NCBI GenBank assembly: GCA_012518935.1
Contig: JAAYRE010000179.1
Location: forward strand, 1 to 35,111
Source: Clostridiales bacterium
GTDB taxonomy: Bacteria; Bacillota; Clostridia; Lachnospirales; Lachnospiraceae
Reading direction: 5' to 3'
Length of the DNA stretch: 35,111 bases
Positions 11,989 to 31,642 of the stretch are shown in pieces (the stretch's first letter is position 1; each line of letters begins with the position of its first letter). The notes beneath the pieces are model-generated. The model saw nothing but the letters and a program-made list of their open reading frames with translations. It was not told the origin of the DNA and did not search any database. A program made the position numbers and the translations under genes.

Positions 11989-12221
11989 ATGCCGACTATG
12001 GAGTCGACACTAAAGAATTTTATACCTAATAATACTATTAGTATGTATTTCTTTAGGCAGCTCTCCATCATGTAAGTGATGACAGTCATATAGTTATTCA
12101 CCATATGCCCAGCAATAATAACTCAGGATTATTACCACTTCGGCAACATTCCCTTTCCACTGTATCTTCTATCCCTGAAATATCCACAGTGTACTATTGA
12201 ACATTGCGCCTCTACCATAAG
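11983..12221 (-). promoter_or_regulatory. Lysine riboswitch (L box) controlling dapAB
   Basis: Read on the minus strand, the conserved L-box pieces appear in order: GTAGAGGCGC, GGAAAGGG, GCCGAAG, GCTGGGC, ACTGTCATCAC and ATGGAGAGCTG. The closing helix P1 pairs about 12212-12221 with 12051-12060, with a small internal mismatch. Downstream, a hairpin (12010-12056) shares the 3' strand of P1. Then comes a terminator GTCGACT-CCAT-AGTCGGC (11991-12007) with a run of seven T. Lysine binding should stabilise P1 and favour termination before dapA, as known for this class. The exact antiterminator pairing was not resolved. Confidence 0.93.
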
Positions 12222-12247
12222 CAATATTTCACATTATTCGTAAGGCT

Positions 12248-27198: not shown

Positions 27199-28044
27199 TT
27201 ATTTATAAAATTCATGTCCACCATGTTTGAATAACCAGTCTAGATTATTATCAAACCATTTTGTGCTACTTTTCCTTGCTCGCTTTCTTGACATGAAGTA
27301 TAGGGCACCCTGTGAGTAATCTTCACCACCTAAGGCTCTGCTAACCGCATCCTTAGTTTCACTGGTAACCTTAACCTTCCAATATCTCTTGTCCCTAATG
27401 GGGGAAAACTGATACTCATCTCCTACCTTCTGGAATATTACTTCCTCTATGGTGTCTGGAAATTCTTCATCCTCTATTCGGTTAAAGATAACATTAGCCA
27501 CCAATATTTTTCCCTTAATATCTTCTCCGGTTGCTTCAGCCTCTACAATTCTCTCCAACATTTCAATTTCTTCTTTGGTTATATTAGTTGCTGATAATGT
27601 CTTGGCTGTGCCACTTGCAGAAAAACTTGTAATTGTCTTTTCCTTCTCATTATCCTGGAATATCTCTGCATGCTCCATATAGGTAATCATGCTCTTATAT
27701 TCCTCATCATTCATAGCAAAACCCAACAACCAGTATGTGTCATCAGATGTTTCCTGCCTCCTAGTCTGTTCTGAATCTAGTGTAACTTCCATGGGAAAGA
27801 CCTTATGATTATCATCTGTAAGTTCATAGGGGTTAACTATGTTCTCCACTTTCTCCATATTACTTATCTCGTTTACTTCATTAGGCTTGTTCAATACATT
27901 TGCTTTGGACTTATTATTGTAAAAAGTATCTGATCCAATAACCAGCAAAAGGATTGACAAAGCATATGCTACGAAAACCATGTAAATGCCATGATTCTTT
28001 TGACGTAGCCTACTCTTTCGAAGAAACGTATTTATATATGCCAT
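27199..28044 (-). CDS. Membrane-anchored SleB/CwlJ-family cell wall hydrolase
   Basis: A 281-residue protein with one N-terminal transmembrane helix (residues about 21-37) and a poorly conserved linker (40-150). The C-terminal Hydrolase_2 domain (about 160-280) matches the spore-cortex-lytic SleB/CwlJ family: RIVEAEATGE with the catalytic Glu168, then VANVIFNRI, EVIFQ, YQFSPIRDKRYW and GALYFMSRKRARK. No SleB-type peptidoglycan-binding domain is present, and the TM anchor instead of a signal peptide suggests a vegetative or forespore-membrane role. AGAGGATTATT precedes ATG 28044. A 9-bp inverted repeat lies 39 bp upstream. It may be a germination enzyme, but gene context does not prove it. Confidence 0.85.
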   Translation of the reverse strand: MAYINTFLRKSRLRQKNHGIYMVFVAYALSILLLVIGSDTFYNNKSKANVLNKPNEVNEISNMEKVENIVNPYELTDDNHKVFPMEVTLDSEQTRRQETSDDTYWLLGFAMNDEEYKSMITYMEHAEIFQDNEKEKTITSFSASGTAKTLSATNITKEEIEMLERIVEAEATGEDIKGKILVANVIFNRIEDEEFPDTIEEVIFQKVGDEYQFSPIRDKRYWKVKVTSETKDAVSRALGGEDYSQGALYFMSRKRARKSSTKWFDNNLDWLFKHGGHEFYK

Positions 28045-28547
28045 AATAATCCTCTTTTCTATATGATAAAATCATATCATTTATAACTTAATAAAGGCTT
28101 AAGTTATTTCCATTATTTGGTTTTCTTGATAATGCTAACATGCATTATAGAGCTCGAAAATTTTAGTGTCAATAAGAAAACCATATTTTCGTAAGATAAA
28201 CCTATAGTCTCTTACCACATTTTGGGCATAATGGTTATATCTCACATTTATTTATAGGCTTAAAGATGAATTTTTTGGTAATAATGTACAAGTAAATTTT
28301 AACAAATTATTAAGAATATATGAATATTTTATTCCATAATGAGGTAAATTATTCATATTCTACTAATATAGAACTAATTTTGGCAAATAAAATCCTATTC
28401 TACAGCCTTTGAATGCTAGGTAAAAGGCAATATCATTGCAAACCATAGAATTATCTGATATATTTTCTTTATCAAGCTAGTTAAGAATAATCGTGCCTCT
28501 AGATATGAGAAGTACAAAAATAAATCCAATTATAGGGGGAGGATTCT
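28045..28547. other. 503-bp divergent intergenic region with several inverted repeats
   Basis: Very AT-rich, no coding frame supported. It holds: ATAACTTAA-TAAAGGC-TTAAGTTAT (28083-28107) near the SleB-like gene; a nested fold with outer arms TGGTTTTCTT/AAGAAAACCA (28118-28127 with 28174-28183) around ATAATGC-TAACAT-GCATTAT (28129-28148); and AGAATATATGAATA paired with TATTCATATTCT (28313-28326 with 28350-28361). The AP2 gene promoter is at 28436. The promoter of the SleB-like gene was not identified. Confidence 0.45.
28436..28464 (+). promoter_or_regulatory. Promoter of the AP2-domain gene
   Basis: TTGCAA (28436-28441) and TATATT (28459-28464) are 17 bp apart, about 85 bp before the start codon. 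It is a moderate match in an AT-rich region. Confidence 0.45.
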
Positions 28548-29336
28548 ATGTTGCCAGGAGTTTTTATGGCTCGAAAGAAAAATGGAGAATATTATTACAG
28601 ATCTTCTATTACCTATCTTAATAAACATATAAGTCTTGGCAGTTATAATACTGAGAGAGATGCCCATGAAGCTTATGTCCTTGCAGGTGAGGTTCTGAAA
28701 TCTAAGACCCAATGGAATATTCATAATTATCCTCATCCTTGTCTCCTATCCTTTCACAAGTGGGTTGTCCTTGTTAATGTAAGGGATAATGGCATATATA
28801 TAAGAAATCCCATCTATTTAAAAAAGAGTTTCTTCCTATATTATATAGACAAAAATACTGTACTAAAATTCGACGTTGAAGATTTGTTTTATTACTCCAA
28901 ACATAAAATCTCTAAAAGAGGGGGTCACCTGTATACATCAGAATATGGTATGCAGGTTAATCTTCTTTCCAGATATGGCATTAGAAATTATTCTGTGGCA
29001 GGCAGAGATTTTATCTTTGTAAATGGAGATGATACAGATTTTCGATATTCTAATATCGAAATAATCAACCCTTATTATGGAGTAACTAAGCATGTTATTA
29101 ATAATAAAGTTTTATATCAAGCTAAGATACACATAAGGGGAGACTATATAATAGGAAGATATAATACTGAAGAAGAGGCTGCAATAGCCTACAATAAGGC
29201 CACTAATGTATTAAAAGTCAAGGGATTGAACAAGAATTACCCTCAGAATTATATAGATGGAATGGATGAGATTACTTATGCCGCCCAGTATCAACGGATT
29301 AGAATTTCCAAGAAAATATTAGAGATAGATATATAG
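28548..29336 (+). CDS. AP2-domain protein with degenerate HNH-like centre
   Basis: A 262-residue, Tyr-rich basic protein. Residues about 12-50 (GEYYYRSSITYLNKHISLGS, then YNTERDAHEAYVLA) and 177-225 (YYGVTKHV, then IIGRYNTEEEAAIAYNKATN) are two AP2/ERF-type DNA-binding domains. Between them, near 153-172, RDFIFVNGDDTDFRYSNIEI resembles the NGD..DNR..NL part of HNH homing endonucleases, but the expected His pair is replaced, so nuclease activity is doubtful. HNH-AP2 proteins are usually homing endonucleases; this one has no intron, intein or phage nearby. It is more likely a domesticated DNA-binding protein or relic. Two starts are plausible: ATG 28548 after GGGGGAGG, and ATG 28566 after AGGAG. 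Target and function are unknown. Confidence 0.75.
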   Translation: MLPGVFMARKKNGEYYYRSSITYLNKHISLGSYNTERDAHEAYVLAGEVLKSKTQWNIHNYPHPCLLSFHKWVVLVNVRDNGIYIRNPIYLKKSFFLYYIDKNTVLKFDVEDLFYYSKHKISKRGGHLYTSEYGMQVNLLSRYGIRNYSVAGRDFIFVNGDDTDFRYSNIEIINPYYGVTKHVINNKVLYQAKIHIRGDYIIGRYNTEEEAAIAYNKATNVLKVKGLNKNYPQNYIDGMDEITYAAQYQRIRISKKILEIDI

Positions 29337-29349
29337 GATATTTCCAAGC

Positions 29350-29382
29350 TATTCCTATGATATTCCTAAGATGTTCCTAAAT
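29350..29382. repeat. Three 11-bp tandem repeats after the AP2 gene
   Basis: TATTCCTATGA, TATTCCTAAGA and TGTTCCTAAAT follow each other from 29350, just after the AP2 gene's stop codon. Non-coding; no terminator shape is evident. Confidence 0.5.
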
Positions 29383-29413
29383 TATTAATAATATTTTAAA
29401 TTTTCAAAAAGCA

Positions 29414-29442
29414 CTACCATAATGCTTATTTTGTGCTATAAT
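29414..29442 (+). promoter_or_regulatory. Extended -10 promoter of the candidate small RNA
   Basis: TGCTATAAT (29434-29442) is a textbook extended -10; the -35 at the standard distance (CTACCA, 29414-29419) is weak, which an extended -10 can compensate. Predicted start near 29449. AGCAC (29410-29414) and GTGCT (29433-29437) form inverted arms across the promoter. Confidence 0.6.
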
Positions 29443-29448
29443 ATTAAT

Positions 29449-29575
29449 ATATTTTTCTTCTTCCGTTTTCATATTTTCGCAAATTGAAGTCGCAGGTATT
29501 CTAAAGAGGTGTTACAGTACACTCGGAATGTACTGACCTTAATAAGTACCCGCGACTAAATTTGTTTTTATTTAC
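29449..29575 (+). ncRNA. Candidate structured small RNA upstream of rnpB
   Basis: A roughly 125-nt transcript with a promoter, a long nested hairpin and a U-tract. Helices in order: CAAATT/AATTTG (29480-29485 with 29559-29564), AGTCGC/GCGACT (29488-29493 with 29552-29557), GGTA/TACC (29495-29498 with 29547-29550), an internal loop TTCTAAAG/TAATAAG, AGGT/ACCT (29507-29510 with 29536-29539), a one-sided bulge GTTA, CAGTACA/TGTACTG (29515-29521 with 29529-29535) and loop CTCGGAA. TTTTTATTT follows the outer helix, so the whole fold ends like an intrinsic terminator. The 5' part is unstructured and pyrimidine-rich. I do not recognise it as 6S, SRP, tmRNA, T-box or a known riboswitch. It could also be a bulky terminator for the AP2 gene. 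Confidence 0.5.
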
Positions 29576-29576
29576 A

Positions 29577-29605
29577 TTTACTTTTATCATTTCCCATGTT
29601 AGAAT
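29577..29605 (+). promoter_or_regulatory. Promoter of rnpB
   Basis: TTTACT (29577-29582), a 17-bp spacer and TGTTAGAAT (extended -10, TAGAAT at 29600-29605) predict a start near 29612, which coincides with the first base of the RNase P RNA P1 helix. Confidence 0.75.
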
Positions 29606-29612
29606 ACCTAAT

Positions 29613-29975
29613 GTGAGTAGCACGGATGGTCGCACCGTATATACGGTGAGGAAAGTCCGGGCTTCATAGGGCAGGGTGCCGGATAACGTCCGGTGGAGGC
29701 GACTCCCAGGCTAGTGCAACAGAAATAAACCGCCATCGCTATATGCGGTGGTAAGGATGGATAGGTGGTTTAAGAGACCACCGCCCTTTCGGTAACGGAA
29801 GGGGCAGATGTAAACCCCACCCGAAGCAAAGCCTAACAGAAAGCTATACGGTTGCCCGCCGTGCTTTCGGGTTGGCTGCGTAGTATCTGTGAAAGCAGAT
29901 ACTGGAGCTGTATGGTAACATACGGTCTAGATAGATGACCATCCAAGACAGAACCCGGCTTATAGTGCTGCTCAT
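29613..29975 (+). ncRNA. rnpB: RNase P RNA, bacterial class A
   Basis: Catalytic RNA of ribonuclease P, which matures the 5' ends of tRNAs. Conserved parts are in order: GAGGAAAGTCCGGGCT near the 5' end (CR-I), AGGGCAGGGTGCC, ACAGAAATAAACCGCC, GGTAAGGATGGATAGGTGG, GGTAACGGAAGGGGCAGATG, AAACCCCACCCGAAGCAA and the 3' ACAGAACCCGGCTTAT (CR-V partner). P1 pairs GAGTAGCAC (29615-29623) with GTGCTGCTC (29965-29973). The layout fits class A rather than the Bacillus class B. Its 3' end is 4 bp from the stop codon of the convergent kinase gene and no U-tract terminator follows. Confidence 0.97.
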
Positions 29976-29977
29976 TA

Positions 29978-31642
29978 TTAAAAACAACTACCCCCAACAA
30001 ATTCTTTCAAGATAGAATTCTTCGGCACCATATCACTTGGTACCCCTATAAAATAATCTAAGAATTTCAACAATCTTTTTGCTTCTAAAAATTCCTTACT
30101 TTTTCTATCCACTCCAAACAATACAGGCTCCGCATAGGTCTTGAGTACAGCCAACTCATATATTAATGCTGAGTTAAACATAATATCTGCATCCTCTTGG
30201 AAGGGGAATATATTCTCCTCTTCGCCTCTTCTTACAGAAGGCCACATAGCTATTGTATCTTGTGCAGATGCTCCTCTAGTCCTTGCATCCCTTACCATTC
30301 TTCTAAGCAATCTGCCGTCAGTGGTTGGGATTCTGTTGTGTTCATCAATATTTAGCTGAGTAAGTGCACTAATATAAATCTTATACTTGCTTTCCCTAGG
30401 CAATGAATATGACAGTGCGTCATTGAGACAATGGATACCTTCAATAACAAGAATTCCATCATTTCCAATAGTAACAGGGTTTCCTTTATATTCTCTTCTA
30501 CCTGTGATAAAATTATAGATGGGTAAATCAACTGCTTTACCATTCATTAAATCTGTCATGTCTTTGTTAAACTGTTCTATATCTATAGCCTGCAAGCTCT
30601 CGAAATTATAATTACCATCCTTATCCTTTGGTGTATCGTCCCTATTTATAAAATAATTATCTACAGCAATGGGATAGGGCTTCATTCCATGGGTTTTAAG
30701 TTGTACAGATAATCTATGGGAAAATGTAGTCTTTCCTGAAGAGGAAGGACCTGCTATCATAATAAATTTTTTGTCTTTTTCCTTCTTTATTGCTTCTGCA
30801 ATATTACTAATTTTCTTTTCTTGAAGTGCTTCCTGTACAAGAACCAGCTCATTAAACTTACCTTCTGATATAAGATCATTAAGTGCTCCTACATTTTCAA
30901 TCTCTAACATCTTTGACCACTGATTAGATTCCCGTAAAGTCATATATAGTTTTTTTTGCGGAATAAATGGTTCTACAGTAGTAGGATTATTTTTTCTGGG
31001 CAATATCAAGATAAAACCATCCTCGTAAAGTGACAAATCGAAGTATTTCAACATGCCCGTACTTGGTGGCATATAACCATAATAATAGTCCTCAAATCCA
31101 TCTAGACTATATATGTTTGCCCTAGACACACGACGATACTTAAAAAGCTTCTCCTTATCATACATTTTATAATTAGCAAAAAGCTCTATAGCATCATCTG
31201 TTCCAATACTTCTCTTATCAAAAGGAAGATCCTTCTTAATTAACTCCTGCATTCTACCTTTTATAGATTCAAGACGTTCCTTTGTTAAATCAAAATCACC
31301 TTCATAATCACAGTATAAGGCATTACCCAAGGAATACTCTACGGTTACTTTCTTAACATTCTCATTACCAAACTCAGCATAAAAAGCCTTTAATAATACT
31401 AAGATCATTCCTCTGGTATAGGTCTTGTGCCCAGCATCTTCAGCTGTAGTAACAAAACTTATTGTACAATCTTTATCTACCACCTTAAACAATTCCCTGA
31501 GCTTATCATTTTCCAAGGCAAGAATTATATCATTGTCATAATCCTTTTGATGCTCTATTGCAATATCTAAGAGCCTAGTATTAATAGGATACTCTTTTTC
31601 ACATTCATTAATTTTAACCTTTACAGTCTGTTTTGTTTCCAT
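29978..31642 (-). CDS. Uridine kinase-like nucleoside kinase with ThrRS-like N-terminus
   Basis: A 554-residue protein. The N-terminal part (about 1-65) is a TGS-like beta-grasp, and 66-200 resembles the editing/SAD region of threonyl-tRNA synthetase (DAGHKTYTRGMILVLLKAF). A linker (200-290) precedes a uridine kinase/phosphoribulokinase domain: Walker A GPSSSGKTT (298-306), VDNYFINRDDTPKDKDG, YNFITGRREYKG and DGILVIEGIH. It is predicted to phosphorylate uridine or another nucleoside; the fusion is widespread in Clostridia but its specificity is uncertain. The start codon overlaps the trmK stop in TAATG, so the two are coupled. The 3' end runs convergently into rnpB with a 4-bp gap. Confidence 0.88.
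   Translation of the reverse strand: METKQTVKVKINECEKEYPINTRLLDIAIEHQKDYDNDIILALENDKLRELFKVVDKDCTISFVTTAEDAGHKTYTRGMILVLLKAFYAEFGNENVKKVTVEYSLGNALYCDYEGDFDLTKERLESIKGRMQELIKKDLPFDKRSIGTDDAIELFANYKMYDKEKLFKYRRVSRANIYSLDGFEDYYYGYMPPSTGMLKYFDLSLYEDGFILILPRKNNPTTVEPFIPQKKLYMTLRESNQWSKMLEIENVGALNDLISEGKFNELVLVQEALQEKKISNIAEAIKKEKDKKFIMIAGPSSSGKTTFSHRLSVQLKTHGMKPYPIAVDNYFINRDDTPKDKDGNYNFESLQAIDIEQFNKDMTDLMNGKAVDLPIYNFITGRREYKGNPVTIGNDGILVIEGIHCLNDALSYSLPRESKYKIYISALTQLNIDEHNRIPTTDGRLLRRMVRDARTRGASAQDTIAMWPSVRRGEEENIFPFQEDADIMFNSALIYELAVLKTYAEPVLFGVDRKSKEFLEAKRLLKFLDYFIGVPSDMVPKNSILKEFVGGSCF

Follow-up and report, generated by a model that had tools for sequence, protein, structure and literature searches.

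The window, by which we mean the whole 35,111-nucleotide stretch of DNA that was analysed, very probably contains a discrete small-RNA gene with its own predicted promoter that is found in many Lachnospiraceae. What the sequences show is conservation, covariation, discrete presence and absence among genomes, and the anatomy of promoter, tail and terminator; transcription, base-pairing, targets and regulator are inferred. A small RNA is a known kind of element; the family to which this one belongs appears to be new and is not represented in Rfam 15. The reading that we favour, and regard as moderately probable, is an independent small RNA whose 5' tail base-pairs in trans with mRNAs. Under this reading transcription would start near 29449 from an extended -10 promoter, which has a conserved block in the place of a -35 element, and a pyrimidine-rich 5' end of about 30 nt, AUAUUUUUCUUCUUCC[A/G]UUUUCAUAG, would stay single-stranded. 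The hairpin, grown to a five-helix stem in the window's genus, would terminate transcription and protect the 3' end. One mRNA or a few would be paired in trans by the fixed tail, which would alter how stable they are or how well they are translated; through the promoter block the amount of RNA would depend on a regulator.

Anatomy of the predicted small-RNA gene

The original prediction described a promoter, a hairpin and a U-tract forming a transcription unit of about 125 nt, and these parts are present in the sequence with a predicted RNA length of 121-125 nt (Table 1). The RNA probably begins at A29449, at +7 from the -10 box, and ends inside the T-run. By sequence reading, the block at the -35 position contains ...CAAAAAGCACTACC... 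in the window, and it is conserved both in eight members of the window's genus and in a 53-row alignment (A3). All 53 aligned copies of A3 have the TG of the extended -10; the rows were pre-filtered for a -10-like box but not for the TG. During assembly of this alignment eight further TTCTTCTTCC sites were dropped because they had no -10-like box or CAT, a chance site in locus L063 was dropped as well, and identical cores were kept once.

Table 1 Features of the small-RNA locus and its neighbours in the window
Feature	Position	Strand	Basis or remark
AP2-like open reading frame, 262 aa	28548-29336	+	Upstream of the RNA; frequent neighbour, not required
A/T-rich block with A-tract, N3, CTACC (29414-29418)	29395-29430	+	Replaces consensus -35; conserved
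Extended -10 promoter TGTGC-TATAAT	29432-29442	+	Window sequence
Predicted small RNA, about 121-125 nt	29449-29572	+	Sequence, fold, R1 match
5' tail TATATTTTTCTTCTTCCGTTTTCATA, unpaired, putative seed	29448-29473	+	Conserved in copies found by covariance model and by pattern
Long imperfect hairpin, five helices, genus-specific body	~29479-29565	+	Covariation in 26 genus copies
T-tract TTTTTATTT after the hairpin	29565-29573	+	Sequence; hairpin and T-rich-tail test on 50 copies
rnpB, RNase P RNA class A	29614-29978	+	RF00010, 284.6 bits

The predicted fold of the window leaves the 5' tail unpaired, and the five-helix hairpin is likely to be the intrinsic terminator of the RNA. For 29414-29590 the folding energy is -35.4 kcal/mol, whereas the shuffles average -23.7 (z -3.49, with none of 200 shuffles equal), and the opposite strand yielded -35.9 (z -3.19, one shuffle as good). 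Since both strands fold about equally, folding alone cannot fix the strand; the plus strand is set by the predicted promoter, the tail, the T-tract and the parts conserved in relatives. A simple terminator scan of 28000-30200 found none, because it looks for a single unbroken stem whose loop measures 3-8, which the five-helix hairpin does not provide. The gap between the end of the element and rnpB is about 40 bp in the window. As originally proposed, rnpB has a separate promoter-like site, TTTACT-17-TAGAAT at 29577-29605, ahead of the start of the rnpB model. The element occurs once in the window's genome, and this single copy rules out a recurrent repeat or MITE.

Copies and covariation within the genus

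A first search by blastn in 99 genomes, the window's own included, gave seven convincing additional copies (L009-L015), which share with the window a common upstream block, -10 box, tail and hairpin, the stem being variable. Two models were used, a covariance model built from eight sequences (R1) and a promoter-plus-tail model (R2). R1 matches the window at 29449-29576 with an E-value of 8.9e-22 and matches 28 of the 34 genomes of the genus at E<=0.1, one of these matches (L072 in G019) being judged false upon reading its sequence. R2 matches 29 of the 34 at E<=1e-4, once in each matched genome. These comprise 27 accepted copies, a diverged copy in G008 that lies 75 nt after the AP2-like gene, and a match in G022 (E 7.2e-5) that lies on a different contig from the AP2 gene and was taken as noise-level. 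The accepted tally is therefore 28 of 34 genomes (27 R1 copies plus G008). An accepted copy is absent from G022, G019 and G021, the sequences of which were read, and from the incomplete genomes G024, G033 and G009. In the diverged G008 copy (L242) the tail is changed or decayed while promoter and terminator hairpin are intact, and this copy is perhaps a gene being lost.

Covariation was assessed on 26 R1 copies, without L069, which is truncated, and L072, which is false; a stricter cut-off had already kept out of A5 four matches of A4 that are antisense or overlap on the opposite strand. Across the five helices 89.4% of cells hold standard pairs against 30-37% in slid controls, and both-side changes occur in 25 of the 31 pairs against 8-15. 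Cells with both-side changes number 130 against 18-32 in slid controls, with 0 of 500 shuffles as high; the alignment is model-fitted and so leans to structure, and the shuffle ignores relatedness, while the gap to the slid controls is still large. Compensatory changes occur in all five helices. A covariance-model search of relatives had been suggested as the check on the hairpin, and with most genus genomes matched and every helix showing compensatory change its outcome argues for a conserved RNA.

Range across Lachnospiraceae and the fixed tail

Among 397 sampled genomes of the family, R1 matches 15 at E<=0.01 and R2 matches 16 at E<=1.8e-8; reading added G348, where the copy (L183) sits directly after the AP2-like gene, bringing the count to 17 of 397. 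At E<=0.01 the matches of R2 rise to 201 of the 397, nearly all of them promoter-like noise. Weaker R2 matches in G214, G346, G442, G342, G217, G122, G335, G327, G393 and G283 were read and rejected, the core with the -10 in place being missing. Because filters were stricter in searches of more than 40 genomes, diverged copies may have gone undetected there. An order-level sample gave two matches in 295 genomes at E<=1e-5, both belonging to the family.

An exact scan for TTTTTCTTCTTCCRTTTTCATA in a one-genome-per-species collection returned 46 stretches, three of which (L112, L113 and L122) are chance matches by context. Titles of the pattern-found sequences include Herbinix, Mobilitalea, Lachnoclostridium phytofermentans, Anaerosporobacter, Mobilisporobacter, Velocimicrobium, Acetivibrio ethanolgignens, and clostridial and other bins. 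Among the carriers are the named strains Lachnoclostridium phytofermentans, Mobilitalea sibirica and Anaerosporobacter faecicola.

Across the family, what stays fixed is the promoter together with the tail of about 26 nt, TATATTTTTCTTCTTCC[A/G]TTTTCATAG. In each of the 40 accepted copies found by R1, CTTCTTCC follows a -10-like box; this invariance is partly ascertained, since R1 rewards the core and the pattern search selected copies for having it. For L063 the stretch first picked was a chance site and the true tail was located separately. Read on the opposite strand, the core forms an open frame that begins with ATG, which could point to a small reverse-strand protein beginning M-K-(T/M)-E-E-E-K. 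We consider such a protein extremely improbable, because variation in the core, judged by eye, is not of the synonymous third-position kind and a ribosome-binding site before the ATG was likewise not seen by eye.

The variable body and terminator

Copies outside the genus carry the same promoter and 5' tail followed by hairpins that differ in sequence and size and are sometimes only about 30 nt, and the AGCCA...TGGCT arms are held in common with the genus in 10 of 26 copies outside it. The hairpin test covered 50 copies, namely the 53 keyed copies minus L063 (overwritten by its chance site) and L069 and L121 (short sequence after the tail). In 48 of the 50 the tail is followed, at a distance of no more than 22 nt, by a hairpin with a T-rich end; in L088 and L120, the two that fail this limit, such a hairpin begins at 34-36 nt. 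All 20 dinucleotide shuffles were beaten in 37 of the 50 copies and not in the other 13. Since hairpins differ while promoter and tail persist, the common denominator is a promoter, a nearly fixed tail and a hairpin. Judged from these sequences, the elaborate hairpin is specific to the window's genus, and the tail, more than the hairpin, is protected by evolution.

These comparisons revise the original picture of the hairpin. Its five helices stand, but the internal loops and the GTTA bulge described with them differ in sequence and length among relatives. The suggestion that helices and asymmetric loops bind a ligand or protein is not supported, given that the loops vary and other genera carry different hairpins. 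It is possible, and we advance it tentatively, that the RNA is modular, with a nearly fixed tail of about 26 nt that is read whole by one old partner and with the rest replaceable. If this were true, the body would be anything between a mere 30-nt terminator and a stem of five helices, and the tail's partner, RNA or protein, would set a family-wide regulatory circuit. A nearly fixed tail on a changeable body also offers a clean case for asking which part of a small RNA selection preserves.

Gene neighbourhood

Of 43 pattern-found copies, 33 have the AP2-like gene on their upstream side in the same orientation, and 29 of these begin within 130 nt past its stop codon. The gene is convergent and downstream in two of the 43 (L119 and L126) and unseen nearby in eight, one of these near a contig end. 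This frequent proximity is what would be expected if the element were merely an elaborate terminator of the AP2-like gene, an alternative that the original prediction had allowed. Three lines of evidence make that explanation very unlikely. The stem is less conserved than the promoter and tail. The element also occurs where the AP2-like gene is convergent or was not found: no match at E<=1e-20 was detected in the genus carriers G030, G011 and G028, and none was found in G232, a carrier from the family sample. Finally, AP2-like genes occur without the element: the gene is present in 163 of the 397 family genomes, of which 16 belong to the 17 RNA carriers and the other 147 have no accepted RNA copy. 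Termination of AP2 is thus not supported as the whole story, and the four carriers in which the gene was not found rule out the AP2-like protein as an obligate partner. The RNA element may also end AP2 transcripts.

The AP2-like protein bears on another alternative, in which the 26-bp asymmetric core is a DNA site bound by this protein, which resembles relatives of homing endonucleases. That the protein is a common neighbour and has weak AP2-type sequence and fold matches speaks for such a site; the fixed place of the core between -10 box and hairpin, together with carriers where the protein was not found, renders it highly improbable.

As for the protein itself, it is nearly always present once per genome in its 163 Lachnospiraceae. 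It has two AP2-type ends, and its middle weakly recalls HNH_3 in 2 of 16 members; the Pfam AP2 model detects 3 of the 16, the window's protein not among them. The best AlphaFold model has a pLDDT of 89.9 (the other four, 61-75) and has weak matches to plant AP2 domains, the best at a Foldseek E of 3.6e-3. The protein may be a domesticated homing-endonuclease relative.

In all seven genus loci read by eye, a convergent VanRS-like two-component system adjoins the RNA, the system's families having been checked for L038 only. The rnpB gene lies beyond this system in all five relatives scanned, giving in each the order AP2 (or its place), RNA, two-component system and rnpB, with AP2 unseen in L044. 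The order is AP2, RNA, rnpB in the window, in G008 and in the single-contig G007, and AP2, rnpB in G022, G019 and G021, where RNA and two-component system are both missing. In the window the relatives' VanRS-like system is missing between RNA and rnpB, at 29572-29614. The proximity to rnpB that the original prediction stressed does not extend to the five relatives in which the two-component system intervenes, and by this comparison of gene orders rnpB is an incidental neighbour. Gene orders and losses together indicate that the RNA occurs or is missing as one unit, whichever neighbours are there, and they rule out an obligate partnership with rnpB or the two-component system.

The constant adjacency in those seven loci, and the conserved block upstream of the promoter, would fit a csRNA-like RNA switched by the neighbouring VanRS-like system, as CiaRH switches the streptococcal csRNAs. 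Such control is nonetheless improbable: the window's genome and G007 keep the RNA without a close homologue of the neighbouring response regulator (best identity 42% in the former, 52-53% in the latter), and other genera, read by eye, show an ABC transporter or a different membrane protein in that place.

Search for targets of the tail

With at most one mismatch allowed, the ten genomes searched contain 305 occurrences of the complement TGGAAGAAGAAAAA and 156 of a reversed control pattern, an excess that we infer to stem from runs of glutamate codons. Thirty loci from the ten genomes were read, among the matches listed. An exact 14-nt match was present in 16 of them, five being the small RNA itself and eleven non-self. 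Ten of the eleven were classified (L202 was left unclassified), and seven of the ten lie inside a same-strand open reading frame. The others are L195, antisense to an open reading frame, L205, near no long one, and L199, a single case in which the match lies 22 nt before an ATG. Among the 30 loci read in ten genomes, from the matches listed, no recurrent extended target was found.

When the tail was paired against 249 start regions, 32 of 100 shuffled tails bound as well, and with the same tail on a coding control 16 of 100 shuffles were as good. This one-tail test shows no excess, and a generic anti-Shine-Dalgarno RNA was accordingly rejected. An earlier comparison over 242 other start regions looked mildly favourable, with -10.6 for the tail against -9.2 for shuffled tails, but there the stronger-binding of two tail variants was compared with an average over single shuffles. 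The AP2 mRNA is not favoured as a target, with -10.1 against -9.4 over 30 start regions. One gene close to the locus, which looks like a surface-protein gene and has a Big_2 domain in one orthologue, shows a fairly good start-region match of about -17 kcal/mol in four genus loci; the four matches look orthologous and thus count as one observation, which makes this gene a weak lead.

With neither a recurrent target among the loci read nor a special ribosome-binding-site fit, a generic anti-Shine-Dalgarno role is unsupported and a protein partner has to be weighed. The 5' tail of an independent small RNA might bind a protein such as an RNA chaperone, a ribonuclease or a titrated regulator. A nearly fixed tail with no recurrent complement among the sites read and no special fit to ribosome-binding sites is consistent with this, but no conserved hairpin or loop presents the tail. 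Protein sites are, moreover, usually shorter than some 26 nearly fixed, asymmetric, single-stranded letters. We therefore judge protein binding unlikely, although less so than any other alternative to trans-acting base-pairing, which stays our preferred reading.

Relation to known RNAs

Over the window, Rfam 15 matches at gathering score were limited to rnpB and a lysine riboswitch, and at E<=10 the element itself attracted only four weak matches, all far under their cut-offs. In six other carrier loci (L107, L131, L092, L128, L132 and L106) the Rfam matches were only rnpB and Clostridiales-1, outside the RNA. These searches rule out a known family in Rfam 15, and bear out the earlier failure to place the element in a known class. 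Word searches of open-access text returned no title or abstract describing the RNA.

The csRNAs of the Streptococcus CiaRH regulon, as described in PMC3091779, have two stem-loops flanking an unpaired part with an anti-SD/anti-AUG stretch, and their control by CiaR is marked by upstream TTTAAG direct repeats. Like these csRNAs, the present RNA is short and intergenic, with a conserved unpaired pyrimidine-rich stretch, a terminator hairpin and bodies that differ between species; unlike them it has one hairpin rather than two stem-loops. It differs further in that no anti-SD excess is seen and the neighbouring two-component system is dispensable. TTTAAG repeats were absent from 29380-29430 of the window when the sequence was read.

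The element closes with a hairpin and a U-tract as intrinsic (Rho-independent) terminators do, but it has its own predicted promoter and a conserved 5' tail and persists where the upstream gene was not found. Small RNAs of the RoxS/RsaE type in Firmicutes use C-rich seeds, and the single-stranded pyrimidine-rich region proposed here as a seed resembles these; unlike them, the putative seed lies at the extreme 5' end, is of mixed U/C composition and has no Rfam match. Clostridiales-1 RNA (RF01699) is also a clostridial small RNA, one copy of which lies near the locus in Anaerosporobacter, but RF01699 matches a separate stretch of visibly different sequence.

The Lachnospiraceae are a prominent gut and plant-degrading family whose small RNAs, by word search, seem little charted. 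The present proposal is directly testable, since it specifies a gene, its predicted start and a candidate seed, and since named strains fall within the range.

Other RNAs observed

The lysine riboswitch lies at 12050-12222 of the window on the minus strand (RF00168, 119 bits). The Clostridiales-1 RNA of Anaerosporobacter faecicola lies at 4740-4990 of L092, minus strand, near the AP2-like gene, with an apparent tandem partial copy alongside. Near position 1500 of L182 and L186, which come from two other genera, a common non-coding stretch ACGATACCACAATAGTGCATTTTTCAT follows a similar TGTGTTATAAT promoter and is possibly another small RNA.
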